Source: a virus
Virus record (IMG/VR): IMGVR_UViG_3300045738_000994
Span: 1-49,963 of that record
Length of the DNA stretch: 49,963 bases
Reading direction: 5' to 3' (one strand)
Below are positions 3-26,159 of this stretch, piece by piece (the first letter of the stretch is position 1; each line of letters starts with the position of its first letter). The translations under genes and the position numbers were made by a program. Below the pieces are notes generated by a model. The model made no database searches, was not told the origin of the DNA, and was given only the letters and a program-made list of their open reading frames with translations.

Positions 3-620
3 GTTGCAATTGCTGTTGGTATGTATTGTTATATTATGCTTGGTGTTACAATGGGATATCATAGATATTGGTCTCACAATAACTTTAAATGTCCTAGATG
101 GTTTGAATATGTAATGATGTTTGGACCCCATATAATGATGATAGGTCCGGCTCTTACATGGGCTGCCAATCATCGAGAACATCACATGTATGTAGATACA
201 CCCGAAGACCCACATAGTCCTTATTATAGAGGAGTGATGTTAGCATACTTCGGACAAGTTCTTATAAACATCAACTTCAAGTTTGTAAGAGATTTATTAA
301 AAGACAAATTACACAGATTACAAGTTAAATATTATTGGCAGGTAGTTGGAGCCTGGGCTTTACTACTAGCTTTAATTGATCCTTATGCTTTATTATACGC
401 TTGGCTCATACCAGCAGGCTTTGCTAAAATGATAGGATCATTGGTATTCACATATTCACACAGAGGGAAAAAAGCTCATAGTGATATGTGGGTAGGTTTA
501 TTAACATTAGGTGAAGGGTTCCATGAGATACATCACAGGACAGCCAGGAGAGTTCTTTGGCACCCATTAGATCTAGGTGGACAACTTATAAAATGGATAG
601 ATCGAGATGTCAAGATTTAA
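3..620 (+). CDS. Fatty-acid desaturase, delta-9 type (5' end cut by window edge)
   Basis: Membrane di-iron fatty-acid desaturase of the acyl-CoA/acyl-lipid delta-9 type, expected to introduce a double bond into a membrane acyl chain. The three histidine boxes are visible: HRYWSH (HxxxxH), HREHH (HxxHH) and HEIHH (HxxHH). Hydrophobic stretches lie between boxes 2 and 3, as in the family. The frame is open to the left edge of the window, so the N-terminal membrane segment probably lies outside and the ATG at 21 is unlikely to be the true start. The 3' end overlaps the next gene by 14 nt, which makes it the first visible member of the long plus-strand accessory operon. A second desaturase occurs at 23789. 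Family assignment is firm; substrate and regiospecificity are inferred. Confidence 0.88.
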   Translation, partial: VAIAVGMYCYIMLGVTMGYHRYWSHNNFKCPRWFEYVMMFGPHIMMIGPALTWAANHREHHMYVDTPEDPHSPYYRGVMLAYFGQVLININFKFVRDLLKDKLHRLQVKYYWQVVGAWALLLALIDPYALLYAWLIPAGFAKMIGSLVFTYSHRGKKAHSDMWVGLLTLGEGFHEIHHRTARRVLWHPLDLGGQLIKWIDRDVKI

Positions 621-1272
621 CAAAAGGCATTACCCACACATTGCCGAACTACCAATAGAACTAGATTACGATCTCATAGAAGAATTTCTGTGGGAACATT
701 ACGACAAGTGGCAAGATAATTACACATCACACAGAGGATTAGCAGTAGCTAGCAATTCAATTGCATCTGATACATATAAAGACGTAGAAACGTTTCATTT
801 AACAGAATGTAAAAAAGAAGAAGAATTAGAAGATGCCTCAGCATACACAACTAAACAAAAAATTTCACGCAAGATTCCGTTCTCTATGGACGAACATAAT
901 TGGAACGAACCCGTTGATTTTTACAAGGGCTCCCCACTACAACGACATCTCAATGGAGCTTTCCAAGATAAATTGATACGGGTTCGTTTCTCTCGCCTTC
1001 GTCCAGGAGGATCTGTTCCACCACATATAGATTATAATACAACTTATGCCATGAGGGTGATCATTCCTTTAAGTGGCAACAAAGGAGTTGAAAATCACTT
1101 TTGGGTAAACGGAGTACATAAAGTAGTTGAAATGAAACAAAAAAGATGTTATTTTCTTAACATAGGATATAGACATGCTGTGTATCACAAGGGCAATGAC
1201 TTAAGACATTATTTAATAGCATCTATTGATGGACAGAAGGATTTTGAATGCATAAGATTATCGACAAAATAA
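607..1272 (+). CDS. 2OG-Fe(II) oxygenase-like, Asp/Asn beta-hydroxylase type
   Basis: Probable non-heme iron, 2-oxoglutarate-dependent oxygenase of the aspartyl/asparaginyl beta-hydroxylase-like group. Around residues 125-215 the protein has the pattern LRPGGSVPPHID (the HxD iron ligands), then a beta-strand reading RVIIPLSGN, then GYRHAVYH with the distal histidine, and an arginine in LRHYLIAS placed to bind 2OG. The N-terminal 90 residues are polar and not recognised. Starts inside the desaturase end and overlaps the next gene by 25 nt. The substrate is unknown; in this operon it could be a peptide, a lipid or a sugar. Three other oxygenases of this fold are encoded at 11320, 24487 and 24986. 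Confidence 0.72.
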   Translation: MSRFNKRHYPHIAELPIELDYDLIEEFLWEHYDKWQDNYTSHRGLAVASNSIASDTYKDVETFHLTECKKEEELEDASAYTTKQKISRKIPFSMDEHNWNEPVDFYKGSPLQRHLNGAFQDKLIRVRFSRLRPGGSVPPHIDYNTTYAMRVIIPLSGNKGVENHFWVNGVHKVVEMKQKRCYFLNIGYRHAVYHKGNDLRHYLIASIDGQKDFECIRLSTK

Positions 1273-1850
1273 AAGGCACAAAACTTGAATCAGCTGTAAA
1301 GTTACTTCAAGAACAAGCATTAGAAGAAGGTAATACATCTATTACCCTTGACAAATATAATGTAGAGACAACACCAGGAACGCCTATGTTGATAACGTGT
1401 AATAGTCGTTACGACAAGTTTGATAAGATTGCTGGGTTTTGTTCTTATGAGCCAGATACATACATGGGGACTCCTGACATAGCAGTTAGGATTTGTCGTT
1501 TACATATATTAAAAGAATTTAGACATAATCAATTAGGATTTTACTTCTGGGATCATTGTTTAAAGAAAGCAAAAAAAGATGGATTTAAAATACAGTATAT
1601 GACACATGATGTTGATGCAAAGGCACTGAACGCTTTATACGAGCATAAAAGATTTGTACCAGGACATAGTAGAGAACCGTATGAGTTAGATTCATTTCAA
1701 AGGATAAAAAAGGAACCTAGATTTTTATTTGATGTAGATCCAGGATCAGGATTCTTTCAAAATATTTATTATGTGGATGTTGACAATGATGGATATAACT
1801 GGATACCCAATACAAATATATCTTGGATAGGGACAAGGTCGACAGTATGA
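1248..1850 (+). CDS. GNAT-like N-acetyltransferase
   Basis: A 200-aa protein with a GNAT-like core at about residues 80-150: a strand RICRLHILKEF, then RHNQLGFYFWDH resembling the acetyl-CoA pyrophosphate loop and helix, then a strand IQYMTHDVD and a helix ALNALYEHKRFV, the usual last-helix pattern in which an aromatic residue precedes the final strand. The canonical Q/RxxGxG/A loop is degenerate (RHNQLG), so an acyltransferase is the best guess rather than a certainty. The ATG at 1248 has an AAGGA ribosome site at a good distance. It ends in an ATGA overlap with the next gene, suggesting translational coupling. The acceptor substrate is unknown. Confidence 0.5.
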   Translation: MHKIIDKIKGTKLESAVKLLQEQALEEGNTSITLDKYNVETTPGTPMLITCNSRYDKFDKIAGFCSYEPDTYMGTPDIAVRICRLHILKEFRHNQLGFYFWDHCLKKAKKDGFKIQYMTHDVDAKALNALYEHKRFVPGHSREPYELDSFQRIKKEPRFLFDVDPGSGFFQNIYYVDVDNDGYNWIPNTNISWIGTRSTV

Positions 1851-2446
1851 CAAACGTGGGTTGGAACGGTCGTTACTACAAACCTATAGCAGGTGTCTCG
1901 GGAAACTTAAAACGTCATGAACCTGACTATACTAATTGGGAAGAGTCCGTTGCCTTGTTTGGAGAGTCTACAACATGGGGCCACGAACTAGAAGAAGAGC
2001 AAAAATTACATAATGTTATTAATACACATAGGACAGTAAACAATTTTGCTTATCCCGCAGAGTCTAACTTTCATATGTGGATGAAATTAATAGATCAAGT
2101 TAAAGCGTACGGCTGGCCATATATCGTTGTTATGGGCTGGACAACTCCTTTTAGAATAGCTGACTTTAAAACCAGCGTGCATGTTGAAAATGTTGGAAGC
2201 TGGAATGGTAAGCCTTACACAGATTTTTTAGAGAGAAACGAAACAAACTTAATTGAATATACTAAATTAGTAATAGACTCAACTCAACTAATGTGTAAAG
2301 GAAATACAAAATTGTTTGAATGGTCGTGGTTTAAATTAAATAGAAAAGAACTTATTGTTAATAAAATAGATTACTCAAAGGACGGACAACACCCTGGCCC
2401 TGAGTCAATACAAAGCATAGCAAGGAAAATAGAAAATGTACTTTAA
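1847..2446 (+). CDS. SGNH/GDSL-type hydrolase-like protein
   Basis: Likely SGNH-fold hydrolase or esterase. Near the N-terminus is FGESTTWGHEL, a phage-style block I in which the serine of G-x-S would be the nucleophile. Near the C-terminus is DGQHPGPES, matching the DxxH catalytic block V. Between them a strand YIVVMGWTTP fits the block III position. I chose the ATG at 1847 because it forms an ATGA overlap with the previous stop; an upstream ATG at 1823 would add eight residues. Overlaps the next gene by 11 nt. A role in adding or removing acyl groups on a glycan or lipid is plausible beside the acetyltransferase-like gene, but this is inference. Confidence 0.6.
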   Translation: MTNVGWNGRYYKPIAGVSGNLKRHEPDYTNWEESVALFGESTTWGHELEEEQKLHNVINTHRTVNNFAYPAESNFHMWMKLIDQVKAYGWPYIVVMGWTTPFRIADFKTSVHVENVGSWNGKPYTDFLERNETNLIEYTKLVIDSTQLMCKGNTKLFEWSWFKLNRKELIVNKIDYSKDGQHPGPESIQSIARKIENVL

Positions 2447-3038
2447 TCATAGACAACTAGAACGTTGGATGGAGTTGATTAGAACTCATCCAGACGGCCT
2501 TGCATGTTTCTGGCCAAGTCAAATTAAAGCAAAAGCATGGATAGCTGATACACTAGCGTTTAATACTCGTATTCCACAGCCCTTTTCATGTATAATATTT
2601 GGGGGGTGGTACGGTGTGTTAGCAGACATGTTACGAATTGAGGACACAACAATCGTTGAGTTAGAAGAAAAACATTTAGAATGGTGCTCACAAAAATATA
2701 CTACTTGGGGTGGTTGTATGTCGAAATATACTTATACACACGATCCTGATTTAGTAATAAATACAGTTACAGAGCACGTTAGTCAGAGAGTGTATGACAA
2801 GTGGTTTGATAATATACCTGAGGGTACACATTATATAATACAAGGTAATAATGATTTTAAAGAAAAAGATCATATTAGAGCAACAGTAGATTTAGATACT
2901 TTTGCAGTCAAAAATAGACTTACCAATTATATTATGTTAGAGGAACAATTTTACGAAGGTCCTTGGGATTTTGAAAACGGTAAACCAAATTATTTTAAAA
3001 GGTTTATGGGAATTGGTAAGAAAGAGAATGGAACATAA
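2436..3038 (+). CDS. Class I SAM-dependent methyltransferase-like protein
   Basis: A 200-aa protein with a Rossmann-like pattern: strand and glycine loop CIIFGGWYGVLADML (motif I-like), strand TIVELEEKHLEWC with an acidic residue at the ribose-binding position, DLVINTVTEH (motif IV-like) and a strand HYIIQGNNDF. It therefore resembles class I methyltransferases, but the SAM-binding loop is short and divergent, so activity is unproven. SD-like AAGGAAA lies about 8 nt ahead of the ATG. The stop overlaps the first radical-SAM gene by 11 nt, so it is probably expressed with that array. Confidence 0.5.
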   Translation: MYFNHRQLERWMELIRTHPDGLACFWPSQIKAKAWIADTLAFNTRIPQPFSCIIFGGWYGVLADMLRIEDTTIVELEEKHLEWCSQKYTTWGGCMSKYTYTHDPDLVINTVTEHVSQRVYDKWFDNIPEGTHYIIQGNNDFKEKDHIRATVDLDTFAVKNRLTNYIMLEEQFYEGPWDFENGKPNYFKRFMGIGKKENGT

Positions 3039-4416
3039 TCCGAGAGGAAATGAAGAAAGAATAGAGCTTTTAGAATTAAAACGTGAGAAAATTAATTCTG
3101 TTAGTCCTTCGTTTTGTAGTGCCAAGTGGCTACAAACAACTCTCTATCTTCAAAATGGATACAACCATAGCTGCCATCATCCATCAGCACATAAGATCCC
3201 TATAGAAGAAGTAAAAGCCAATCCAGCTGCTTTACACAATAGCCAATTTAAAAAAGAACAAAGAGCTAAAATGCTTAATGGTGTTCGCCCTCAGGAATGT
3301 GATTACTGCTGGAAGATAGAAGATTTAGATAAAGATTATTTCTCAGACAGACATTACAAAACAGCCGACTGGTGGGCATGGGATAGGTTTAAAGAAATTG
3401 CTAACAGCTCGCCGGCTGATGATGTTTATCCTTCATATTTAGAAGTATCGTTTGCCAATTCATGTAACTTTGCCTGTGCCTATTGTAGTCCAGACATATC
3501 ATCTACATGGATGAAAGATATAGAAGAACATGGTAACTACCCTGTACAAAACGGCAACCATGATCTAGCCTATTTAAAAAGCATAGGTAAGTTTCCATAT
3601 AAGCGTAGCGAAGAGAACCCTTATATGGAAGCCTGGTTTAAATACATGCCAGAAGTATTACCACACTTAAAAGTCTTTAGACTTACAGGTGGAGAGCCTA
3701 CAATGTCAAAAGATGTGTGGAAAACTCTTGAATATATAATAGATAACCCACAGCCACAACTGCAAGTAGCAATTAACACTAACCTAGGAACAGACAAAAA
3801 ACTTATAGACAAATTAATTAAAACTATAAACCTATTAGAAGATAAAGTAGATAGAATAGATGTTTATACAAGTGTTGAAAGTACAGGCGAGTATGCAGAG
3901 TATGTGAGAGATGGGATTGATTACAACTACTGGTATGAAAACTGTAAGCGTGTATTATCAGAAACAAATTCACTTGTTGCTATAATGACAACGTTGAATA
4001 TATTGTGTTTACATGGATTTCATAATTTTATAGAAGATATCATGAAACTAAGAATAGAGTTTAATAAAAATTTAGAAAACAATAGGGTTCCTATTAGTTT
4101 AAATTATTTAAGATGGCCCCCTCACTTACAGTCAACATTATTAGATATAAAAGATAGACAGCATTTTGTGAGCATGTTTTTAAAGCAAGGTAAGGGTTGG
4201 TTAAAGTATGATTCACCTGATAAATGGGCTAGACTATATTTAGAAGAGTATGATCAACTTAAACGTTGGTGTGATTACTTATTACAAGAACCAACCCAAA
4301 CAAAATTTAGAAATGATTTCGTTAATTTTATTAAGGCTTACGATGTGAGAAGAGGAAAAGACTTTACAAAGGTATATCCTGAATGGGCTCACTTATTAGA
4401 GGAATGGAATGTCTGA
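3028..4416 (+). CDS. Radical SAM protein with N-terminal twitch-type cysteine region (1 of 6)
   Basis: Radical SAM enzyme of 462 aa. The CxxxCxxC cluster motif is C146/C150/C153 (CNFACAYC), followed by LTGGEP, the SAM-binding GGE motif. Ahead of the core are C30 in SFCSAKW, C49 in SCHHPS and C91/C94 in RPQECDYCW, the arrangement seen in 'twitch domain' radical SAM proteins, where such cysteines are thought to hold an auxiliary Fe-S cluster. Start chosen at 3028 (an upstream ATG at 2971 would overlap the previous gene by 68 nt). It is very similar in layout to the following protein, pointing to a tandem duplication. The reaction is unknown. No precursor peptide is visible nearby. Confidence 0.85.
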   Translation: MEHNPRGNEERIELLELKREKINSVSPSFCSAKWLQTTLYLQNGYNHSCHHPSAHKIPIEEVKANPAALHNSQFKKEQRAKMLNGVRPQECDYCWKIEDLDKDYFSDRHYKTADWWAWDRFKEIANSSPADDVYPSYLEVSFANSCNFACAYCSPDISSTWMKDIEEHGNYPVQNGNHDLAYLKSIGKFPYKRSEENPYMEAWFKYMPEVLPHLKVFRLTGGEPTMSKDVWKTLEYIIDNPQPQLQVAINTNLGTDKKLIDKLIKTINLLEDKVDRIDVYTSVESTGEYAEYVRDGIDYNYWYENCKRVLSETNSLVAIMTTLNILCLHGFHNFIEDIMKLRIEFNKNLENNRVPISLNYLRWPPHLQSTLLDIKDRQHFVSMFLKQGKGWLKYDSPDKWARLYLEEYDQLKRWCDYLLQEPTQTKFRNDFVNFIKAYDVRRGKDFTKVYPEWAHLLEEWNV

Positions 4417-5923
4417 AGACGTAGAAAATCTAATTATATGGAGACAAGAAAACTTAGACACCAAGTCTGAAAGTTTTTGTGGAGCTAAATGGTATAACGC
4501 TACCACATGGTTAGGTAGTGGAACAACTGCTAGCTGTCATCACCCTCCGGCACACAAAATTCCATTGGCAGAACTAGAAGGAAACCCTTCAGCCATACAC
4601 AATACAAAACACAAAAAGGCAATGCGGAAGATGATGCAAGAAGGAGCTCGTCCACGTGAATGTGAGTATTGTTGGAAAATAGAAGACATACCTGGTGATA
4701 CTAGGGTTTCAGATAGAGTATTTAAGTCTAACATATACACACCCGAACAATTAGACAAAGCATACAACGCAGACTTTAATGATAATACAAATTTAAAAAC
4801 ATTTGAAATAGCATTTGATAGAGTATGTAACTTGGCGTGTAGTTATTGTAATGCAAGTTTTTCTACTACGTGGGCAAAGGATATTAAAAATGATGGTCCG
4901 TATCAAAACCTTGTTAGTGATGGCGCAGCAGCTTTTCAACAAGATGGTGATTGGACAGAGCCTTTTGGAAGGGATGCAGTAACCCCCGAAAAAAATCCGT
5001 ATATAAAAGCATTTTGGGATTGGTGGGATTCAGGCCTAGCAGATGAATTAGAAGAGTTAAGAGTTACAGGTGGAGAACCGCTAATGTCCGGAGAGACATG
5101 GAAACTGTTTGATAAAATACAAGCACGTCCTGAAATGCGCCTAGCAATTAACAGCAATCTAATATGTAAACCTAAAATTCTAAATAAGTTAATTAAAAAG
5201 AGCCACGACATTAAAAAGTTTCACATTTACACTAGCGCAGAGTGTTATAGAGAACAGCAAGAATATGTAAGAGATAATTTTGTTTGGAAGGTTTGGAACA
5301 ATAATATGGAACGTATTATTAATGAGGCCAATTATGAAGGACTTCATATAATGATGACTATTAATAGTTTATGTTTATTTTCTATTACAGAATTTTTAGA
5401 TCATGTTTATAAACTTAAAATGATTAAAGGAACAAAGTCACCAACAGTTACTTTGAACCTATTACGTTTTCCTAGTTTTCAAAGTCCACTAGCACTTCCT
5501 GATCATATTAAAATATATGTTAGAACGCAACTTATGAATTGGTATGCTAAACAAGAAGATAAACAGTGGTGGACAGGAATTGAACGTGCTAACATAGAAC
5601 GTTTAATAGATTATTTAGATCACGTAGATGCGCCGCACAGAAGAACAAGCCCTAAACCTGCATTGTGGAGAGACTTTAAATCGTTTTATGAACAATACGA
5701 TATAAGGAGAGGCCATGACATACATGTATTTCCTGAAATATTAACAGACTGGTTAGACGCTATGCCGCCTACTATTACAAATATTGCAACATTAACAGAA
5801 GGCGATAGTACAAAGGACAACGTAGGAGACGAAGATTTACAAAGAATTGCCAAAGAAGAAGGTTGGATACTAGAGCCGGACAATAAAAACATAGATGAAC
5901 CTTTAGGGGATTATGATGTCTGA
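4409..5923 (+). CDS. Radical SAM protein with N-terminal twitch-type cysteine region (2 of 6)
   Basis: Radical SAM protein of 504 aa, paralogous to the preceding one: SFCGAKW, SCHHPPAHKIP, RPRECEYCWKIED and CNLACSYC recur in the same order, with VTGGEP as the GGE motif. The C-terminal 60 residues, after the shared YDIRRGHD segment, form an acidic polar extension absent from its neighbour. GAGGA lies upstream of the ATG, and the start overlaps the previous stop by 8 nt. The close similarity to gene 1 suggests either a heterodimer or two successive modifications on one substrate. Both ideas are inference; only family and paralogy are seen. Confidence 0.85.
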   Translation: MSEDVENLIIWRQENLDTKSESFCGAKWYNATTWLGSGTTASCHHPPAHKIPLAELEGNPSAIHNTKHKKAMRKMMQEGARPRECEYCWKIEDIPGDTRVSDRVFKSNIYTPEQLDKAYNADFNDNTNLKTFEIAFDRVCNLACSYCNASFSTTWAKDIKNDGPYQNLVSDGAAAFQQDGDWTEPFGRDAVTPEKNPYIKAFWDWWDSGLADELEELRVTGGEPLMSGETWKLFDKIQARPEMRLAINSNLICKPKILNKLIKKSHDIKKFHIYTSAECYREQQEYVRDNFVWKVWNNNMERIINEANYEGLHIMMTINSLCLFSITEFLDHVYKLKMIKGTKSPTVTLNLLRFPSFQSPLALPDHIKIYVRTQLMNWYAKQEDKQWWTGIERANIERLIDYLDHVDAPHRRTSPKPALWRDFKSFYEQYDIRRGHDIHVFPEILTDWLDAMPPTITNIATLTEGDSTKDNVGDEDLQRIAKEEGWILEPDNKNIDEPLGDYDV

Positions 5924-7097
5924 GCTCTATTGTGTAAATTTAGAAAAGAATGTTCGTGTTGACAACAAAGGGACATGTACGAGCTGTTGTTTACAAATGA
6001 TTCCTTATACGGACGAGTTTGGACAGGAATTAAACATTCGTAAAAACAGTTTAGACGATGCTATCAATAGCTATACAGCCAATGTAATTAGAAACAATTT
6101 AAAAAAAGGAGTACAAGATCCTCATTGTAACTATTGTTGGAGCCAAGAGAATGTTGGTAGAAGAAGCAAAAGAATGATAGACAATGAACACAGAGCAGAT
6201 TTAAATAGAAACATAGAGGTTCAAGCATTAGATCTTAATATGGGTACCACATGTAATATAAAATGTAGAACGTGTGGGCCTGATAATAGTTCTATGTGGA
6301 ATAAAGAGTTTTTAGCTTTACATGATGGATATGGAAATATTGCGAGCGGTAAAAAAGAATTTCAAGAATATTTTAGACAATTTAATAAGTCGTTTGAAGA
6401 CGACAGTGCTATCTGGGATGATATGGAACAACATCTGCCTAGGATAAGATATATTGACATGTATGGTGGTGAGCCTATGTTAATGAAGAAACAATGGAAG
6501 CTATTACAAACAGCAATTAAGTTAGGTTATGCAAAAGATATATCCTTACACTACAATACAAATGGAACACTATGGGATGAAAAGACGTTTAATATACTAA
6601 ATGACTTTAAACATATATCAATGGACTTTAGCTTAGATGGTATATACAATAGATTTGAATTTATGAGACACCCAGCCAAATGGGATCCGGTTATTAAGAA
6701 CTTTAGAACACTAAAGGATATATCTAAAACAAATAAAAAGTTTGACATATCAATTGCACATACAGTAAGCTCTTTAAACATTTGGTATATACCTGAATTT
6801 ATGGAATATTTTAAAGGGGAAAATATGTATTTAAATTTAGTACATGGCCCTCCTCATTTTAATATAGTAAACATTCCTCAAGACATTAAAGAAGTAATTG
6901 AAAAACATTTAGGACATTCAGATCCTAAAGTAGTTGAAATAATAAATTTTATGAATGGTAAAAAGGCCAATCCTTTAGAGTGGACTAAGTTTGCTCCTAA
7001 TGTAAGAGGAAGTGATGAATATAGAAAAGAAGACTTTAGAGAATTCTTCCCAGAGTTTTATAAAGTATTAACAGAACATGGGTGGAACTATGGCTAG
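5913..7097 (+). CDS. Radical SAM protein with N-terminal twitch-type cysteine region (3 of 6)
   Basis: Radical SAM protein of 394 aa. C114/C118/C121 (CNIKCRTC) bind the catalytic cluster, and YGGEP is the GGE motif. The N-terminal cysteines are C7, C22, C25, C26 and the pair C72/C75 in HCNYCW. Unlike the first two members it is followed in the core by GPDNSSMWNKEF, a motif shared with members 4 to 6 (C-G/N-x-x-S-S-x-W), so the array falls into two subfamilies. Two adjacent ATGs (5913, 5916) could serve as start. Overlaps both neighbours. Substrate unknown. Confidence 0.85.
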   Translation: MMSELYCVNLEKNVRVDNKGTCTSCCLQMIPYTDEFGQELNIRKNSLDDAINSYTANVIRNNLKKGVQDPHCNYCWSQENVGRRSKRMIDNEHRADLNRNIEVQALDLNMGTTCNIKCRTCGPDNSSMWNKEFLALHDGYGNIASGKKEFQEYFRQFNKSFEDDSAIWDDMEQHLPRIRYIDMYGGEPMLMKKQWKLLQTAIKLGYAKDISLHYNTNGTLWDEKTFNILNDFKHISMDFSLDGIYNRFEFMRHPAKWDPVIKNFRTLKDISKTNKKFDISIAHTVSSLNIWYIPEFMEYFKGENMYLNLVHGPPHFNIVNIPQDIKEVIEKHLGHSDPKVVEIINFMNGKKANPLEWTKFAPNVRGSDEYRKEDFREFFPEFYKVLTEHGWNYG

Positions 7098-7542
7098 AAA
7101 AAAGAATATGATACCGGAACCAATTACATTAATTGTTAAAGATATAAGAATAATAATTGAACAGGGTGAATTTGTAACTATATATGGTGTCGCCGGATCA
7201 GGCAAATCACCTATACTTAGAGATTTATCTAGGGATTATCCTGACAGGGTATGCTTTTTAATAAGAGATGATGTCCCACATGTACAACATAGAATTAATA
7301 TACTTAAAGCAGTATTAGGCGGCCATGACATTTATCTATTTGACGAACCAACAGGCCACGGTTTAGTGAGAGCACAGCGAATGGAAATGTTATCATTGAT
7401 ACACAGGCTTCATGATCATGGAAAAACTATAATAATGGCAACACATGATCAAGCGGCCATAGAACTTGGAACAAGAGTTATAGAGCTAATGGAAGACCAA
7501 ACTTTCATAGATCATGGCCCTGGACTACATAGGACCTTATGA
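7090..7542 (+). CDS. Miniature ABC-type ATPase without signature subdomain
   Basis: A 150-aa P-loop ATPase with ABC features: Walker A GVAGSGKS at residues 33-40, Walker B IYLFD at 81-85 followed by the catalytic glutamate (DEPT), and an H-loop-like ATHD with H119. Only about 40 residues separate Walker A from Walker B, against roughly 115-120 in a normal ABC domain, and no LSGGQ signature is present: the helical subdomain is missing. The DEPT is followed by GHGLV instead of a canonical D-loop. No transmembrane partner lies nearby, so export is not supported. It sits inside the radical-SAM array with overlaps on both sides, suggesting an accessory NTPase role. The upstream ATG at 7078 is an alternative start. 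Confidence 0.75.
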   Translation: MARKKNMIPEPITLIVKDIRIIIEQGEFVTIYGVAGSGKSPILRDLSRDYPDRVCFLIRDDVPHVQHRINILKAVLGGHDIYLFDEPTGHGLVRAQRMEMLSLIHRLHDHGKTIIMATHDQAAIELGTRVIELMEDQTFIDHGPGLHRTL

Positions 7543-8834
7543 AGTATCTTTGCACAGCGCCTTGGACACATACTTACGTTAGCCCGCAAGGTGAACGACG
7601 TCTGTGTTGTGCTAGCAGAGAAGATTCAGATTTTCAGAAACAATATATTGATTCAGGAGAACAAAACCCAAATCCAAAATTTAATCCTATTGCATTAAAA
7701 GATCATTGGAATAGTGAATATATGAAAGACATAAGAAAGCGCATGATGGATGGAGAGGCCATACCTCAATGTGTTGTATGTAATGAGAACGTTTTAAACC
7801 TACATACATATAGGTCATATTTTACTGATACTCTATTCCCACATAAAATACAAGAGTTAATAGACACAACAGATGAGACTGGCTATACAACAATGGTTCC
7901 GGTATCATATGATTATCGTTTATCTAACTTATGTAACTTCAAATGTAGAATGTGTGGAGATCAGTTATCTTCATCTTGGGAGGCAGAAAACAAATCAAAC
8001 AAACGTCTACAAGATGAGCCCTGGTTAATACCTAACAACAGAAGGAAAATAACAAACTTTCAAAAAGAAGTATTAGAAGAAGAATTACAAGCAGCAGTTG
8101 ATGAGGATGTAATAGAAGAGATTTATTGGGTAGGTGGAGAACCTTTAATGTGGGAAAGACATTGGACAATAATGGAGCAACTTAAAGACTCCGAAAGGAA
8201 AAAAGAGATTACTATACGTTATAATACAAATTTAAGTAGAATTGATTATAAAAAATACAACCTGTTTGATATGTTAGAAGGTTTTAAAGCTATGAATATA
8301 TGTGCAAGCATTGATGGAGCGGGAGCAATAGGTGAGTACATAAGAACAGGAATAAAGTGGGACGAATGGTTAGATAACTTTAAAAGAGGAATCTACTTAA
8401 ATGAAATATATGGCGATGATGGCATGGTATTTGATGTTACACTTACAACACCTGGCTTATTTGGATTAAAAGATTTATTTGATGTTGTAACAGAACTAGA
8501 TGTAAAATCTTATTTTAAATTTACTTATGGCTTTACACCCAACGTTCTTATGTGTCCCGATGCCTTACCTAAATCTATTGTAGAACCTTATTGTAACGAA
8601 CTTATAGAATACATGGAGTCAAGAAAAACTGAGAAGACACAGGTATATATTGATTCACTTAAAAACTTAATAGAAAGAAAAAGTTTTGATGAACAATGGG
8701 AAGGAGACGCACTTAAATATGGAATGAGAAACGGTAAAGAAAATTTGTTGTTTTTAGAAAAGATAAGAGATCAAGAGTTGACGTTTAGAGAGATATTAAA
8801 TGAACCAGGAAAGGAGTGGTGGGATGCCATCTAA
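7539..8834 (+). CDS. Radical SAM protein with N-terminal twitch-type cysteine region (4 of 6)
   Basis: Radical SAM protein of 431 aa. The catalytic motif is C132/C136/C139 (CNFKCRMC) and the GGE motif is VGGEP. The N-terminus carries CTAPWTHTYVSPQG ending in C23/C24, then C78/C81 (CVVC), the typical twitch layout with a C-x3-W and a paired CC. Linked to the upstream mini-ATPase by an ATGA overlap, so the two are probably translationally coupled. Its C-terminus overlaps the next gene by 11 nt. The N-terminal PW-xxxxxxP-x-G-xxxxCC pattern recalls SPASM/twitch clusters of peptide-modifying radical SAM enzymes; the actual substrate is unknown. Confidence 0.85.
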   Translation: MKYLCTAPWTHTYVSPQGERRLCCASREDSDFQKQYIDSGEQNPNPKFNPIALKDHWNSEYMKDIRKRMMDGEAIPQCVVCNENVLNLHTYRSYFTDTLFPHKIQELIDTTDETGYTTMVPVSYDYRLSNLCNFKCRMCGDQLSSSWEAENKSNKRLQDEPWLIPNNRRKITNFQKEVLEEELQAAVDEDVIEEIYWVGGEPLMWERHWTIMEQLKDSERKKEITIRYNTNLSRIDYKKYNLFDMLEGFKAMNICASIDGAGAIGEYIRTGIKWDEWLDNFKRGIYLNEIYGDDGMVFDVTLTTPGLFGLKDLFDVVTELDVKSYFKFTYGFTPNVLMCPDALPKSIVEPYCNELIEYMESRKTEKTQVYIDSLKNLIERKSFDEQWEGDALKYGMRNGKENLLFLEKIRDQELTFREILNEPGKEWWDAI

Positions 8835-10068
8835 ATCATTTTGTCCATTACCATGGAATCACTTAGCCACACACCCTGACGGACAGGTTAGTTTATGTTG
8901 TGAGGCAGAAACTATTGATGGTGTTTCTAACGCACACTTTACAGTCTCACGGACTAGAGTATTTAATACATTGTTGTCTACCAAATATGATTTTAATAAA
9001 ATAACTAACAGCGAAAGTTTTAATAAGGTTAGATTACAAATGCTTAATGGAGAGTATCCAACACAATGTAAAAAATGCTGGGACTCTGAATCTGCTGGAA
9101 ACCCTAGTAAAAGAACAGTTGAATCTGAAAGGTTAAATTTTACTGAAGAAGATGCTATAAAAATAACCAATATAGATGGTAGTTTAAAAGAAGTTAATTA
9201 TGAATTTATAGAACTACGTTTAGGCAACCATTGTAACTTAGCATGTAGAACCTGTAATCCTATTTCAAGTTCACGTTGGAAAAAAGAGTGGAAACTTTTA
9301 GATTTAGAGAAGAGTTATTTAGAGGTTCCACAAACTAATATGAATTGGCCAAAAGATCAAAACTTTTGGGATAAACTATTACCACATATAAACGAATTAA
9401 GATATGTTTATGTAAACGGTGGAGAGCCGTTACTTATAGACAAACACCTTGGGTTTTTAGAAGAGCTCGTTAAAAAAGATGTAGCAAAAAATGTTACCCT
9501 AGTATATTCTACTAATACAACAGTTTCAGGACAGGACTACGAAGATGCTTGGAAGGAATTTAAAGAAGTACAGTTAATGTGGTCTATAGATGACATACAA
9601 AGGCGAAATGAATATATGAGGTATCCAGCAAAGTGGGATCAAACATTAGAAACAATTGATTGGTTTAAAGGTTTAGAAAGTAGACATGAGAATATATTTT
9701 GTTCTATACTACAAACAATTTCTATATTAAACATTTATTATTTAAAAGAGTTTCACGAATATTTTAAAGAGATTGTTCCTTATGTTTCACCTAACTATGT
9801 TACGGAACCTAATTACTATGACCCTGCTATTCTTCCAATAAATATTAAGGAAAGAATACTTGAAAAAAGTGAAGGTGAAGTATTTTATGATAGTATAAAA
9901 AATTATTTAACTATTGAACGCCCTGATACTATAATGACCGGACCGGCAGAAAATCTTCTATATAGATTCTTTGACATTACAAACAGGCAAGACATTATAC
10001 GAAAAGAAAAATTTAAAGATGTCTTTCCAGAATTTTATGAGATAATAAAAGACTATGACAAAAAATAA
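8824..10068 (+). CDS. Radical SAM protein with N-terminal twitch-type cysteine region (5 of 6)
   Basis: Radical SAM protein of 414 aa: FCPLPWNHLATHPDG with C7, paired C25/C26, C82/C85 in QCKKCW, catalytic C137/C141/C144 (CNLACRTC) and NGGEP. Start at 8824 is supported by a good AGGAG about 8 nt upstream; an upstream in-frame ATG at 8800 lacks this. The sequence SSSRWKKEW after the cluster motif is the subfamily hallmark shared with members 3, 4 and 6. Overlaps the next gene by 14 nt. The overlapping layout fits stoichiometric expression with the other five members. Confidence 0.85.
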   Translation: MPSKSFCPLPWNHLATHPDGQVSLCCEAETIDGVSNAHFTVSRTRVFNTLLSTKYDFNKITNSESFNKVRLQMLNGEYPTQCKKCWDSESAGNPSKRTVESERLNFTEEDAIKITNIDGSLKEVNYEFIELRLGNHCNLACRTCNPISSSRWKKEWKLLDLEKSYLEVPQTNMNWPKDQNFWDKLLPHINELRYVYVNGGEPLLIDKHLGFLEELVKKDVAKNVTLVYSTNTTVSGQDYEDAWKEFKEVQLMWSIDDIQRRNEYMRYPAKWDQTLETIDWFKGLESRHENIFCSILQTISILNIYYLKEFHEYFKEIVPYVSPNYVTEPNYYDPAILPINIKERILEKSEGEVFYDSIKNYLTIERPDTIMTGPAENLLYRFFDITNRQDIIRKEKFKDVFPEFYEIIKDYDKK

Positions 10069-11320
10069 AGACACTAAATGTGTATTACCTTTAATACATT
10101 TACATACATGGCCTAATAAGGATGTATATGCTTGCTGTCTTGGCAACATAGATCATCAAGTAGGAACATTAAAAACAAATACTCTAAAAGAGATTTGGAA
10201 TGAAGAACCCATGCGCAAAATTAGAAGGACCATGTTAGCAGGGGAAAGACCTCCTGAATGTATTAATTGTTTTAAAGAAGAAGACACCGGCAACGAGTCT
10301 TTTAGAATAACTTCTGCGAGAGACTTTGCCCCTCATATGAAAAAATGGGATGATGTAAAAGAAGATGGTACATTAGATGAAATGGATTTAGCATATTGGG
10401 ACTTTCGTTTTTCTAATGTATGTAATTTCTCATGTCGTAGCTGCGGCCCACAATTAAGCACAGGTTGGTATGGAGACACCAAAAAGATATGGGGTGGTTT
10501 ACCACCTGATCTTCCTGAGAAAGGCAGAGTGTTTGAATTGTGGGAACAAATAGAGCCTTATTTTCCCATAGTAGAAAAAATATATTTTGCTGGCGGTGAA
10601 CCTTTAATGATGGAAGAACATTACAGGATTATTAATAGACTTATAGAAATGGGAAGGACAGATGTACATTTAATATACAACTCAAATTTAAGTCAGTTCT
10701 TTTACAAAAAACAAAACATATTAGATTCCTGGAACAAGTTTGATCGAGTAACAATGGCAGCAAGTTTAGATGGTTATGGACCACGTGGAGAGTTTGTTCG
10801 TACAGGTTTGAGTTGGGAGAAGTGGCTTAATAACAGATTAGAAATGAAAGAAAGAACTCCTAAGGTAGAGTTTAATATTAATTCTACAGTTAGCATACAA
10901 AACGTTATGCACCAACCAGACTTTTTTAATGAATTAATGAGACAAGGGGTAATAGATCACCCACATTGTTTCCATGTAAACTTGGTTCATTTTCCTTATT
11001 GGTTAAATGTTGGAATTTTACATCCAAGCAAAAAACAATTAATAGACAAACTATGGACAGACTGGGAATCAGATATACTAACAAAATATAAACCTGCCTG
11101 GAGATCAGAGACTTTAGTAAGACATATTAGAGGATTTATAGATTTTATGTGGTCAGGAGAATTTAACCCTGAGATGATCAAGAAGTTTATTGAAGAAATG
11201 GAACGTATTGATGCAGTGAGAGACGAAACTTGGCAAGAATCAATTCCTGAAATGGCAGACTTAGATCCTGACTGGAGAATAAAACGGATTAGAAAGCAAG
11301 ACCCGTTTATATATGGGTAA
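10055..11320 (+). CDS. Radical SAM protein with N-terminal twitch-type cysteine region (6 of 6)
   Basis: Radical SAM protein of 421 aa, last of the array. C9 (KCVLPLIHLHTWP), paired C27/C28, C69/C72 (CINCF) and catalytic C123/C127/C130 (CNFSCRSC), followed by GPQLSTGW and the GGE motif AGGEP. It ends in a TAATG junction with the following oxygenase. Member 6 and member 4 share an RTG-x-x-W-x-x-W motif near residue 260, suggesting they are closest relatives within the array. Reaction and substrate are unknown. Confidence 0.85.
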   Translation: MTKNKDTKCVLPLIHLHTWPNKDVYACCLGNIDHQVGTLKTNTLKEIWNEEPMRKIRRTMLAGERPPECINCFKEEDTGNESFRITSARDFAPHMKKWDDVKEDGTLDEMDLAYWDFRFSNVCNFSCRSCGPQLSTGWYGDTKKIWGGLPPDLPEKGRVFELWEQIEPYFPIVEKIYFAGGEPLMMEEHYRIINRLIEMGRTDVHLIYNSNLSQFFYKKQNILDSWNKFDRVTMAASLDGYGPRGEFVRTGLSWEKWLNNRLEMKERTPKVEFNINSTVSIQNVMHQPDFFNELMRQGVIDHPHCFHVNLVHFPYWLNVGILHPSKKQLIDKLWTDWESDILTKYKPAWRSETLVRHIRGFIDFMWSGEFNPEMIKKFIEEMERIDAVRDETWQESIPEMADLDPDWRIKRIRKQDPFIYG

Positions 11321-11907
11321 TGGAATACAACCAGATACATACAGATTACCCTATATGGGATATAAAAGATTTTATATTACCTGATATTAATTGGAAAGAA
11401 AGTGAAGTCTTTGACCAACTCATAAGGAGTAATGAATATGGAGAATTTAACTCTCCAAAAGGATTAAGGAAAAATTTAATTCATACAAATAATGATGACT
11501 ATCAAAATTTTTTAGATGCATGGAATGGCTATACAGTTCAATTAGAACAGATGCTTATAACTACAGATTTACTAATAGTAGATCAAATGTGGAAAGGACA
11601 TATAAAGAGATTGCACTGGCCCCAACACGACAAAAATACAGACTATCTATTAGACCTACCTAATTTTAAAATGGGTGAACACTTAGATAATAGATATGTT
11701 TTAGGAGTTTTAATTATAAACATACAAGACAATCCAGAAGGATCTGGAACACATATTAAAGAGCTTGATCATGCAGGAACTACTGAGAAAGGAACAGGGT
11801 TGCTTATATTAAACAATTATAATACATACCATAGCGTAATGCAGCCAGGCCCTGGAGATAGGAAAATAGGATATCAAACTTTAACAATAGATCATTTATA
11901 TGATTAG
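11320..11907 (+). CDS. 2OG-Fe(II) oxygenase-like protein
   Basis: A 195-aa protein whose C-terminal half has the double-stranded beta-helix pattern: MGEHLDNR (HxD iron ligands at about residue 120), strand VLGVLIINIQD, GSGTHI, then GTGLLILNNYNTYHSV containing the distal histidine, and DRKIGYQTLTI with an arginine for 2OG. The N-terminal half is not recognised. Placed between the last radical-SAM gene and a glycosyltransferase-like gene, with overlaps on both sides, so it likely works on the same product. Hydroxylation is the default prediction. Confidence 0.68.
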   Translation: MEYNQIHTDYPIWDIKDFILPDINWKESEVFDQLIRSNEYGEFNSPKGLRKNLIHTNNDDYQNFLDAWNGYTVQLEQMLITTDLLIVDQMWKGHIKRLHWPQHDKNTDYLLDLPNFKMGEHLDNRYVLGVLIINIQDNPEGSGTHIKELDHAGTTEKGTGLLILNNYNTYHSVMQPGPGDRKIGYQTLTIDHLYD

Positions 11908-14566
11908 ATATTATACAATAGGTTTTGACAAAGGCGATCAAGCTATAGGAAAAACAGAAAAAAAGATAGTCAATTTGTTATTAGATAAACTGCCGGCTCA
12001 TATTTGTTTAATCAATTCGACTTGGTTGGGTGATGATTTAAAAGGATTAAAAGAGTTTATTACTCAAACAACATGTACTGAAGCAGCGGTTTACTCAGGA
12101 CCTGACTGGGAAAATACTTCTGAACCTGGAAAACGAACAAACACACATAGATTATTAGAAGATAAGTTTGAAAAAGTACACCACATAGGCAATACAAATA
12201 AAGGATATTATTTTAGTTTTTGGTTAGAGTTTATAAAAGATAATTGGAAATATTTTAATAAAGACAAATACAAATCAGAACCTAAGCTAGTGCGCTCATC
12301 AACAGTAGGTAAAAATGGCAAACATTTTTTATGCTACAACAGAAAACCACATGATCATAGAGTTGGTTTTATGAATAAACTTATGATCGGTTCTGATCAC
12401 AGACAAGGGTTATCAAATTTTGGAATTGTTTCTGCTACAATAGAAGACCCACGTTATACTTTTTGTACTCCTATAATATTAGATGAAAGTCATGATTCAA
12501 AGACTTTTGAAATAATTAACGAATGGGAAGGACAAAATGAAAATGATATTATTTCATTAGGAGACGCAGGACATTGGGAAAGACACTTTCTTACAGTAGT
12601 TACAGAAACAACAATTCATACAGATGTATTGCTTAGTGAAAAAACTTTTAAACCTATTATAGGCTTACGGCCGTTTTTAATTTTAGGAGATGCAAACCTT
12701 TATCCTAAATTAAAAGAAATGGGCTTTGACATTTTTGAAGATATGTTCCCAGACATTTTAATAAGTTTATCACATCCAGATTATGAAAAACGCATCAATT
12801 ATATAATTGATCAATTACAGCGCTTATCAGCTTTTTCTTTAGAAGAGTTAGATGTGAAATATAAAGAACTACTTCCGCGGTTGGTGGCTAACAGAGCACG
12901 TTTAGAAGAAGTAATAAATGAAAATTCTAACAGAATAGAAAACATAGATGAGGTATTTAGATCTAATGAACAGAACTCTATACAAGTACCGTGGGATTAT
13001 TATTTCGAGTTAGAGACGTTTGCAAAAGACTATCCACCACAACAAAAAAGGGATCATTGGAAAACAGGACAATGGAATATAGGTATGCCTGCCAACAATC
13101 AAAAGACAACAATCTCTGTTGATCCTCCTTTTGTTGTTGATAGATCTTTTCATAATCCTAATGATATTTTTTATTTGTGGTTTGACAAACTAACCAATCC
13201 GTTGCAAGGAAATATGTATCAAGCTGGTAACAACCATACGGTGGGAGAGGCAGCAAACATGCAATGGTGGTATGAGTTTGCAGAATTAAATTATAAGATA
13301 ATGGATATAGAAAAATTTAATGAAAATGTACATGGCAAAAATCACCCTTTACACAATTACTATTTTATTGAAATAGCTTCTTTAGATAGTTTAGCATCTC
13401 TTATAGGTGAACTTCCAGACATAATAAAAAAGTTATTAAGAAAAAGAATGATACAATTAGTTTTTGTGTTTCCTCACGAAGGATTTCATTTAGACGCTCA
13501 TTGGTGGATGGAGAAATTAAATGCAGCGGTTGTTCAAAATAATCTAAATGGAATTTATTCTTATTTTATCTTTGGTGATATAAACTTTTCTAGAAACTAT
13601 GCTCAATGGGTTAGTAGCAATCCTATGGGACAGAAAGGTATGTTTACCAAAGCAATTGGTTATGACTATTTTCAATTTTTATATCGTCAACAATATGTAT
13701 TAAGAACAGATCCATTAGAAGTGGGATTATTTACAATGGAGAATGCAGTTGCTTTTATTGCTGATGGTAATACTTATGAACGAGAAACACTACATACGGT
13801 TCCAACTGCTGAAGACAAAACACACGATTTATTAAATTTTAATGGTTTACCAAGGCCACATAGAGTGGCGATTGTATCAGAATTACACCGATTAGGTTTT
13901 GATGAAACTTCTTATATAAGCTTCTTGTTACGATACTATGGTGATGTAGAAGGAGAAAGAGAATATAGAGCAGAGTGGAAAAAAAATCTTTTAGAAGTAG
14001 CCGAACCTTTACTTAAAACAAAAACACAAACAGATCATTTGTTGGAATTTTTTAAAGAACCGAAACATATTGAATTAGACGTTACAACAGATCAACTCAA
14101 ACAAGATGATAGATATTATGATAAAAATCTTTATAAGAGTTCTTATTTTTCTTTAGTTAATGAAACTATTTTTACAGAGCCGCTAAACAAAAACCAATGG
14201 GACACTCAACTCTTTATTACAGAAAAAACCTATAAGCCCTTAATGAATTACCATCCATTTATTGTTGTGAGCCTACCATATACACTTCGTTATTTAAGGC
14301 AACAAGGATTTCAAACCTTTCCAGAAATGTTTAATGAGTATTATGACCTTGTTAAAGATCCTGTAGAAAGATTTGATTATATAGTCAAAGAATTAGAAAA
14401 ATGGAAGAGCTATTCAACAGATGAAAAGAATCGTAGGTATAATGCAATAAGACCTAAGCTTGCATTTAACAAATGGCACTTCCTACATAACAATAAACTC
14501 CAACAACTTAAAACCAGGAAGAAGGATATGTTATTATCTTTACATCCATATAAGAACAATGATTAG
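11900..14566 (+). CDS. Double glycosyltransferase-like protein (two tandem similar domains)
   Basis: An 888-aa protein with two related halves. The first contains FLTVVTETTIH followed by LLSEKTFKPIIGLRPFLILG near residues 230-270. The second contains YFSLVNETIF followed by FITEKTYKPLMNYHPFIVV near residues 750-800. Each is followed by a similar helix with R/K-x-GF-x-x-F-x-x-MF and a basic helix. The E-T...EK-T/F-KP-x-x-x-xPF pattern resembles the nucleotide-sugar binding end of GT10-like and other GT-B glycosyltransferases that occur often in phages, so sugar transfer is the best guess. The repeat is seen; the activity is inferred. Overlaps neighbours by 8 nt at both ends. Confidence 0.6.
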   Translation: MIRYYTIGFDKGDQAIGKTEKKIVNLLLDKLPAHICLINSTWLGDDLKGLKEFITQTTCTEAAVYSGPDWENTSEPGKRTNTHRLLEDKFEKVHHIGNTNKGYYFSFWLEFIKDNWKYFNKDKYKSEPKLVRSSTVGKNGKHFLCYNRKPHDHRVGFMNKLMIGSDHRQGLSNFGIVSATIEDPRYTFCTPIILDESHDSKTFEIINEWEGQNENDIISLGDAGHWERHFLTVVTETTIHTDVLLSEKTFKPIIGLRPFLILGDANLYPKLKEMGFDIFEDMFPDILISLSHPDYEKRINYIIDQLQRLSAFSLEELDVKYKELLPRLVANRARLEEVINENSNRIENIDEVFRSNEQNSIQVPWDYYFELETFAKDYPPQQKRDHWKTGQWNIGMPANNQKTTISVDPPFVVDRSFHNPNDIFYLWFDKLTNPLQGNMYQAGNNHTVGEAANMQWWYEFAELNYKIMDIEKFNENVHGKNHPLHNYYFIEIASLDSLASLIGELPDIIKKLLRKRMIQLVFVFPHEGFHLDAHWWMEKLNAAVVQNNLNGIYSYFIFGDINFSRNYAQWVSSNPMGQKGMFTKAIGYDYFQFLYRQQYVLRTDPLEVGLFTMENAVAFIADGNTYERETLHTVPTAEDKTHDLLNFNGLPRPHRVAIVSELHRLGFDETSYISFLLRYYGDVEGEREYRAEWKKNLLEVAEPLLKTKTQTDHLLEFFKEPKHIELDVTTDQLKQDDRYYDKNLYKSSYFSLVNETIFTEPLNKNQWDTQLFITEKTYKPLMNYHPFIVVSLPYTLRYLRQQGFQTFPEMFNEYYDLVKDPVERFDYIVKELEKWKSYSTDEKNRRYNAIRPKLAFNKWHFLHNNKLQQLKTRKKDMLLSLHPYKNND

Positions 14567-15977
14567 GTGGGGAGTATCAGCAGGACATCATGACGCAGCC
14601 ATATCTGTGCTTGAAGATAACGAAATTTTATTCGCAGGCCATGCTGAACGTTATAGTGGTATAAAAAATGATAAAAATTTAAATAGAGCTCTTGTACAAG
14701 ATGCTGCACAACATGGAATGCCTGAAGAATTGTATTGGCACGAAAGCCCGTTTTGGAAAAATACAAGACGTTTATATAGTGGACAAAAATGGCAAAAGAA
14801 CAACATTAAGGAATTATTTAGAAGTTATGGTTTAGATGGAAAAATAAAATACACCACACATCACAAATCACATGCAGCAGCAGGTATGTTTACAAGTCCT
14901 TATCGTAATGCAATGGTTATTGTGATAGATGCTATAGGAGAGTGGACAACTTCAAGTATATGGAGTGGAGCTTTAGGAAAGTTTTGGAGCACACGTTTTC
15001 CTACTTCATTGGGCATGTTTTATTCTGCTATTACAGATAGATGTGAATTAAAAGCAAATGAGGACGAGTATATTTTAATGGGTATGGCTGCATATGGAGA
15101 TCCAGATAGATATTATGATGATATGAAACTATTGTTACAACAAAATTTATATCATGGTTGCAGATCATGGCAACAACATCAAGATGATCCACACAATACA
15201 TTATATTTTGATTTTGCAGCAACAGCACAAAAAATATACGAAGAAGAGTTTAGAAAAATATTAGAGATCTCCAAGAAGTATGACTACAGCAACAACTTAG
15301 TTCTTCAGGGAGGCTGTGCATTAAATTGTGTAGCAAATAATATAGCTTTAGAATATTATGATAATGTATGGATAATGCCTAACCCAGGAGATGCAGGGAC
15401 ATCATTGGGAGCAGTATTAGCTCACACACAAATTCACGTAGAGTTTACACCTTATTTAGGATACAATATTCCTGGTCCATATCCAGGACATCAATTACTA
15501 GACGAACTACTTAAAGGAAACATGGTAGGGGTAGCTAACGGGAGAGCAGAATTTGGACCTAGGGCATTAGGTAATAGAAGTTTGTTTGCAGATCCACGTG
15601 GTCCTGATATAAAAGACAGAGTAAATAAAATTAAAAGGAGACAGGAATTTAGACCTTTTGCACCGGTTATAATGGAAGAGTATGCAGCCAGCTATTTTGA
15701 AATGCCATGTAAAGAAGCTCCCTTTATGCAATACACAGCTAAGTGTAGAGAGCCTAAGAAATATCCAGCGATAGTTCATGTTGACGGCACTTCAAGAGTT
15801 CAAACAGTTACAAGAAAACAACACCCAGGACTCTATCAGTTATTAGTAGTGTTCAAAGATCAAACAGGATGTCCTATGTTACTTAATACAAGTCTTAATA
15901 TCAAGGGCAAACCAATCGTTAATACCCGCAAGGACGGTGAAATGTTTTCACAAAAATACGGGATCAAGGTATTTTGA
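14559..15977 (+). CDS. NodU/CmcH-type carbamoyltransferase
   Basis: Carbamoyltransferase of the NodU/TobZ/CmcH family, which uses carbamoyl phosphate and ATP to carbamoylate a hydroxyl group. Visible motifs are HHKSHAAAGMF (the metal and nucleotide site shared with Kae1-like proteins), GMAAYGDP, LQGGCALNCVAN, GRAEFGPRALGNRSL at the start of the C-terminal domain and LNTSLNIKGKPIV near the end. The 472-aa length is somewhat below the family's usual 550-600. Start chosen at 14559, 8 nt inside the upstream gene; an earlier ATG at 14460 would lie far inside it. The acceptor could be a glycan made by the operon or a hydroxymethylated nucleotide: phage members that act on 5-hydroxymethylcytosine are known. 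Confidence 0.9.
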   Translation: MIRWGVSAGHHDAAISVLEDNEILFAGHAERYSGIKNDKNLNRALVQDAAQHGMPEELYWHESPFWKNTRRLYSGQKWQKNNIKELFRSYGLDGKIKYTTHHKSHAAAGMFTSPYRNAMVIVIDAIGEWTTSSIWSGALGKFWSTRFPTSLGMFYSAITDRCELKANEDEYILMGMAAYGDPDRYYDDMKLLLQQNLYHGCRSWQQHQDDPHNTLYFDFAATAQKIYEEEFRKILEISKKYDYSNNLVLQGGCALNCVANNIALEYYDNVWIMPNPGDAGTSLGAVLAHTQIHVEFTPYLGYNIPGPYPGHQLLDELLKGNMVGVANGRAEFGPRALGNRSLFADPRGPDIKDRVNKIKRRQEFRPFAPVIMEEYAASYFEMPCKEAPFMQYTAKCREPKKYPAIVHVDGTSRVQTVTRKQHPGLYQLLVVFKDQTGCPMLLNTSLNIKGKPIVNTRKDGEMFSQKYGIKVF

Positions 15978-25729: not shown

Positions 25730-26159
25730 TGTTTACGAACAATTAAAAATTGATGAAGGCGTCTTCTATGGTATATACGAAGACTCTTTAGGATTTTTAA
25801 CCTTTGGAGTAGGACATTTGATTACAAAAGATGATGACGAAGATGGACTTCCGATAGGCTATGATATATCTGAAGAAAGAGTTCGAGAGGTTTTTGAACA
25901 AGATTTAAATACGATGATATCTGAATGTGAGATATTATTTGAATCTCGTTGGAATAATTTTCCTGATGAACTACAGGAAGTTCTTGTTAATATGATGTTT
26001 AATTTAGGAAGGCCTAGGTTAGGCAAATTTAAAAAGTTTATTGGCCACTTAGAAAACCATCATTGGCCCCTTGCCGCTTTGGAAATGTTAGATAGTAGGT
26101 GGGCTAGGCAAGTAGGTAATAGAGCAATACGCCTGTCAGACAGAGTAGCTAGACTCTAA
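25707..26159 (+). CDS. Lysozyme, GH24 (T4 lysozyme family)
   Basis: A 150-aa muramidase of the T4 lysozyme family. The active site is conserved: IDEGVFYGIYEDSLGFLTFGVGH gives the catalytic Glu, Asp and Thr in T4 spacing (E-x8-D-x5-T). The C-terminal lobe carries VLVNMMFNLGRPRLGKF and a conserved final helix. No signal peptide is visible. It may be the endolysin or a virion-associated lysozyme: the gp5-like protein here lacks the lysozyme domain that T4 gp5 carries. Convergent with the tape measure gene, overlapping it by 11 bp. Confidence 0.9.
   Translation: MNIKNKDNVYEQLKIDEGVFYGIYEDSLGFLTFGVGHLITKDDDEDGLPIGYDISEERVREVFEQDLNTMISECEILFESRWNNFPDELQEVLVNMMFNLGRPRLGKFKKFIGHLENHHWPLAALEMLDSRWARQVGNRAIRLSDRVARL

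Follow-up and report, generated by a model that had tools for sequence, protein, structure and literature searches.

A conserved array of N-terminal-twitch radical SAM genes in uncultured aquatic phages, with a possible role in glycan modification

The window analysed here is the whole of IMG/VR virus record IMGVR_UViG_3300045738_000994 (49,963 bases), which is linear and possibly a fragment. Its source is a marine virus of bacteria; the genes downstream of the array described below include matches to T4-type baseplate, tail and single-strand-binding proteins, and the nearest relatives of the baseplate wedge protein are those of cyanophage BUCT-ZZ01 and Pelagibacter phage HTVC008M (34-38% identity). 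Between positions 607 and 15977, 14 genes overlap or abut with zero gaps (Table 1), and six of them encode radical SAM proteins, here called r1 to r6. A sequence-only reading of this DNA had described the six as consecutive, mutually overlapping genes. The overlapping block is indeed unbroken, but the six genes are not consecutive, since an ABC-type ATPase gene fills the gap between the end of r3 (7097) and the start of r4 (7539). This ATPase gene was detected nowhere but in the window and in two near relatives, L007 and L008; its absence from another near relative, L009, marks it as accessory, and it was ruled out as a core part of the array. Walker A, Walker B and H-loop motifs were recognized in the ATPase, and neither an LSGGQ signature nor a Q-loop was visible.

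Table 1 Genes of the radical SAM block and the adjoining desaturase-like gene
Feature	Position	Strand	Evidence
Fatty-acid desaturase-like, cut by contig end	3-620	+	PF00487 54 bits; same position in relatives
Aspartyl/asparaginyl beta-hydroxylase-like	607-1272	+	PF05118 36 bits (cut-off 22.6)
GNAT acetyltransferase-like	1248-1850	+	PF00583 24.9 bits (cut-off 20.7)
SGNH-hydrolase-like	1847-2446	+	FGESTTWG motif by eye; no Pfam match
Putative methyltransferase-like	2436-3038	+	no Pfam match; family in 27 related loci
r1, N-terminal-twitch radical SAM, SCHHP subfamily	3028-4416	+	NF033640 302 bits
r2, N-terminal-twitch radical SAM, SCHHP subfamily	4409-5923	+	NF033640 288 bits
r3, N-terminal-twitch radical SAM	5913-7097	+	NF033640 292 bits
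Compact ABC-type ATPase, 154 aa, accessory	7078-7542	+	PF00005 29.7 bits (cut-off 25)
r4, N-terminal-twitch radical SAM, ERR[LM]CCAS motif	7539-8834	+	NF033640 317 bits
r5, N-terminal-twitch radical SAM	8824-10068	+	NF033640 350 bits; N-terminal SPASM PF13186 30.4 bits
r6, N-terminal-twitch radical SAM	10055-11320	+	NF033640 370 bits; N-terminal SPASM PF13186 30.7 bits
Small protein, 2-oxoglutarate-oxygenase-like by eye (HxD...H)	11320-11907	+	no family matches; variable in relatives
888-aa protein with two EKTxKPxxxxxPF domain copies	11900-14566	+	family in 36 related loci
NodU/NolO-type carbamoyltransferase	14556-15977	+	PF16861 184, PF02543 119, phrog_1601 334 bits

The sequence-only reading had also seen no precursor peptide between the array genes. 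Because the genes from 607 to 15977 follow one another without a gap, the block has no room for a small, separate precursor-peptide gene, and a local RiPP precursor was ruled out; the array enzymes may still act on a precursor encoded far away or on a large protein. Upstream, arrays of the window lineage carry the desaturase gene, and genes pointing away from it on the minus strand (L028 498-2111, L033 1105-2244, L053 179-1306 and L056 711-1793) encode proteins with long Asn/Thr repeats whose C-terminal part is conserved (PPPSAIAPSIG/AIG...YSQDLCTTG).

All six proteins matched NF033640 ("twitch domain-containing radical SAM protein", N_Twi_rSAM; 398-position model, curated cut-off 170 bits) with 288-370 bits in alignments spanning almost the whole model, and the whole record contains exactly six genes of this family. 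In the six-way alignment, GGEP and seven cysteines are invariant, the latter comprising four N-terminal residues (C30, C49, C91 and C94 in r1 numbering) and those of CX3CX2C, which bears out the CxxxCxxC, GGE and N-terminal cysteine motifs initially read from the sequence. CX3CX2C was present in all of more than 500 relatives, and the four N-terminal cysteines are consistent with one auxiliary cluster. The SPASM profile PF13186 (cut-off 21.5) was exceeded in r4-r6 only. The proposed division into two subfamilies, with SCHHP/AHKIP marking r1 and r2 and CC marking r3-r6, was likewise right, but C-x-x-x-S-S/T-x-W had been wrongly confined to the latter four, as S-[ST]-x-W follows the cluster cysteines in all six, with S158 and W161 invariant. 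All six genes are under purifying selection (dN/dS 0.08-0.23), and r4 is the most strictly conserved class.

Relatives were gathered with r6 (21 loci) and with an r4 alignment, which found at least 596 viral contigs encoding r4, the best 80 of which were kept. In a tree of 207 homologues, each window protein fell into its own clade, usually with one member per locus. Clade support was 1.0 for r4, 0.97 for r3, 0.94 for r2, 0.72 for r5 and 0.56 for r1 (37 sequences from 35 loci), and that of r6 varied between 0.50 and 0.85 with rooting; the split between r1+r2 and the remaining members had a support of 1.0. Distant phage members of the r2 class were 46-52% identical to r2. The six proteins thus appear in this tree as old paralogues, and recent tandem duplication was ruled out by their separation into six old clades. 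The array consists of six intact, selected and phylogenetically distinct radical SAM proteins encoded in one overlapping block.

To describe co-occurrence, we used 47 viral contigs that had been fetched solely by r4 similarity and that extend at least 6 kb on either flank; these loci are phylogenetically non-independent, yet their r4 proteins are 48-87% identical to that of the window. r1 and r2 were each present in 47/47 loci, r5 in 45/47, r6 in 33/47 and r3 in 20/47, and r1, r2, r4 and r5 occurred together in 45/47. The usual order is r1-r2-r4-r5-(r6)-(r3), with r1 and r2 adjacent in 75 loci and r4 and r5 in 66. Single-copy loci, which would have spoken against a joint pathway, were not found among the 47. 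Copy number ranged from 4 to 11 per locus; the core consists of four classes (r1, r2, r4 and r5), and six, the number emphasized by the sequence-only reading, is not fixed. Hundreds of uncultured aquatic phages carry the array set, in most cases next to genes for sugar processing. Among 50,697 deposited phage records, r2 had no match and r4 no ortholog; r4 and r6 recovered only distant radical SAM proteins (20-25% identity), nearly all from Vibrio phages.

The r2 class also occurs on Bdellovibrionota chromosomes, where it adjoins housekeeping genes. The r2 profile matched 33 of 144 sampled Bdellovibrionota genomes at E 1e-60 or better; nine matches exceeded 590 bits, and the rest had scores that r1-type genes also reach. 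Some of these genomes contain up to 26 matches to the family. One chromosomal locus (L130 5236-15018) holds seven family genes and adjoins the ATP synthase operon; in another, a mixed radical SAM cluster also includes a c4-type gene (see below) and an SGNH-like gene (L131/L132). Four further loci from apparently bacterial genomes (L113, L114, L115 and L118) were not counted as bacterial; their genes are ordered as in phages, and they resemble phage contigs placed in bacterial bins.

A predicted model of r4, the one member modelled (pLDDT 76.6), has a radical SAM barrel with a partial TIM barrel fold, and a similar barrel is probable in r1-r3, r5 and r6 given their homology. Lack of the barrel, which in most members would have spoken against the pathway interpretation, was not seen in r4. 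The best structural matches by VIA-align were MoaA (Z 9.8), SkfB (9.6), CteB (9.4) and BlsE (9.2), with peptide-modifying enzymes (SkfB, CteB, anSME and ChlB) as numerous as sugar enzymes and viperin-like structures also present. In Foldseek, the single match under E 0.001 was BlsE, which was not taken as an indication of function, given that enzymes acting on sugars, peptides and cofactors are intermingled in the VIA-align ranking; the fold therefore does not choose the substrate.

Hints of the substrate came from neighbour genes, which were clustered over about 75 viral loci. Among the commonest was a family named c4, found beside arrays in 45 loci, followed by c5/c6 and the EKTxKP family that includes the 888-aa protein of the window (36 loci each), a carbamoyltransferase (30) and the methyltransferase-like family (27). 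UDP-glucose/GDP-mannose dehydrogenases adjoin arrays in 18 plus 9 loci, GT2 and GT7 glycosyltransferases in 16 each, NAD-dependent epimerases in 8 and an amidinotransferase-like family in 5, and the dehydrogenase, GT2, GT7 and epimerase assignments are backed by Pfam. Tail-fibre-like genes were found beside 28 and 23 loci. The EKTxKP, c4, c5 and c6 families had no significant database match, searches of PDB sequences included, nor did the 888-aa protein match in Pfam; its motifs suggest a glycosyltransferase-like protein. The c4 model is weak (pLDDT 69.5) and bears a weak structural resemblance to nucleotidyl/GT-A enzymes, its best matches being nucleotidyltransferases such as HddC, below significance. 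In one phage locus (L100 3449-4963), a glycosyltransferase family 7 domain is fused with a laminin-G/sialidase-like lectin domain.

On 16 long contigs, 10 of 12 dehydrogenases lay within 10 kb of a family gene, as against 3.4 expected, a count reached in 4 of 20,000 random placements; for carbamoyltransferases the figures were 10 of 16, 3.5 expected and 11 of 20,000. A carbamoyltransferase is present on 15 of these 16 contigs, in some of them far from the array. Since sugar genes are commonplace in phage variable regions generally, their proximity to the array may partly reflect a shared genomic hotspot. The neighbours in relatives nevertheless point to glycan chemistry, so that the original statement that no substrate is evident, although formally true, can be narrowed.

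We conclude that the array forms a genuine multi-enzyme system that has been conserved. The membership of each paralogue in its own old clade, together with the co-occurrence of the core in 45 of 47 loci, supports the initial suggestion of a dedicated multi-step pathway or multi-subunit complex. The best-supported reading, which we hold with moderate confidence, is that the enzymes of the block form a dedicated pathway whose product is an extensively modified glycan, destined for the virion or the surface of the host. At least four non-redundant radical SAM enzymes (r1, r2, r4 and r5; here six) would act in turn on a sugar or nascent glycan through radical steps such as dehydration, epimerisation, decarboxylation or C-C bond formation. 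The carbamoyltransferase, acyltransferase, SGNH-type esterase/transferase, methyltransferase and hydroxylase would then decorate the product, and glycosyltransferases would place it onto a tail-fibre protein or the host envelope. In this scheme we infer that the substrate is a sugar, as well as the kinds of reaction, the order in which they occur and where the product ends up. Against this reading stands the window cluster itself, in which neither a nucleotide-sugar dehydrogenase nor a glycosyltransferase recognised by Pfam is present; the near relatives L008 and L009 likewise had none flagged. The unmatched EKTxKP, c4, c5 and c6 families, the peptide-modifying enzymes among the r4 matches and the carbamoyltransferases remote from the array also weigh against it. 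Glycosyltransferase and nucleotide-sugar genes are present in many relatives; in the window only the carbamoyltransferase is certain, and the glycosyltransferase label is motif-based.

The main rival, which we consider unlikely but the most serious of the alternatives, is that a virion protein is the substrate, in which the enzymes install radical-made cross-links, epimerised residues or other residue changes. The likeliest candidate would be a tail fibre or adhesin whose gene adjoins many of the arrays, with the glycosyltransferases modifying that protein too. Among SPASM/twitch radical SAM enzymes whose function is known, peptides are a frequent substrate, and r4-r6 have N-terminal SPASM matches; moreover, peptide-modifying structures rank high for r4, tail-fibre-like genes are frequent neighbours and a protein-hydroxylase-like gene lies within the block. 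However, the gapless block offers no place for a precursor gene, the carbamoyltransferase, nucleotide-sugar dehydrogenase and epimerase would be unexpected, and the chromosomal arrays of Bdellovibrionota adjoin ordinary bacterial genes.

A pathway for a soluble metabolite, cofactor or modified nucleotide made during infection, of the kind suggested for the radical SAM genes of Campylobacter phages (PMC2853527), appears rather improbable. Carbamoyltransferase, amidinotransferase-like and dehydrogenase genes are also known from natural-product sugar pathways, and the resemblance of r4 to MoaA and viperin-like structures would fit, but no export or self-protection gene was seen and the frequent adjacency of tail-fibre genes argues for a surface target. 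Finally, the idea that the radical SAM genes are independent cargo of a hypervariable region, with no single pathway, is very unlikely given the co-occurrence of the classes, because despite the variable gene order and total number and the precedent of pelagimyophage cassettes (PMC7029224), the same clades recur jointly, with recurrent r1-r2 and r4-r5 pairs and all four core classes in nearly every full locus.

Phages with many radical SAM genes have been described before (PMC2853527, PMC5332604, PMC7029224), and the phenomenon is therefore not wholly new. Campylobacter phages CP220 and CPt10 carry a module of five radical SAM genes plus an amidinotransferase, for which a metabolic boost was proposed, and CP220 has, next to tail/baseplate genes, two nucleotide-diphospho-sugar transferase-like ones (Timms et al. 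2010, PMC2853527). That module resembles the array in having several radical SAM genes and an amidinotransferase, the array neighbour at L022 19314-20405 being 35% identical to the CP220 counterpart, but its radical SAM genes belong to another family and are shorter, and tblastn with r2, r4 and r6 gave no Campylobacter phage match. The T4-like environmental virus TARA_ERS488813_N000010, with 12 radical SAM genes discussed under Fe-S metabolism (Nishimura et al. 2017, PMC5332604), is similarly a marine T4-like phage rich in such genes; its published description includes no conserved classes or glycan link. Pelagimyophages, also T4-like and marine, have radical SAM genes close to those for tail fibres and glycosyltransferases in the host-recognition region, but as variable cassettes (PMC7029224) rather than the conserved set found here. 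In rSAM/SPASM RiPP maturation systems, a short precursor gene lies beside the maturase, unlike in the present 14-gene block. All six proteins belong to NF033640 by its curated cut-off, but that family is defined by sequence alone, and the six classes and their fixed co-occurrence lie outside its definition. No earlier description of the conserved six-class set was found in the literature searched, which excluded most subscription journals.

More tentatively than the pathway itself, we suggest that the arrays represent a phage system of wide occurrence, with four or more non-redundant N-terminal-twitch enzymes producing a hypermodified glycan displayed on the tail fibres or the infected cell. 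Predatory Bdellovibrionota would share this system, which would have escaped notice because the core enzymes are absent from the isolated phages searched. With r2 and r4 lacking orthologs among the deposited phages, culture-based phage biology would have missed them. Radical SAM enzymes are costly, oxygen-sensitive catalysts, and their maintenance as a conserved set of four to six in hundreds of uncultured aquatic phages suggests that these viruses depend on the product for something important. Should that product be a surface glycan, it would matter for host recognition, superinfection exclusion or evasion of host defences, and the array would provide new sugar-radical chemistry.

Promoter and terminator scans of the window gave chance-level results. 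Beyond the block, the gene at 20344-21243 matches phrog_540 ("nucleotide-sugar epimerase", 154.6 bits); it lies in the replication region, and the label may mislead. On the opposite strand, positions 26149-29685 encode a 1178-aa protein, parts of which match tape-measure and tail-lysin families.
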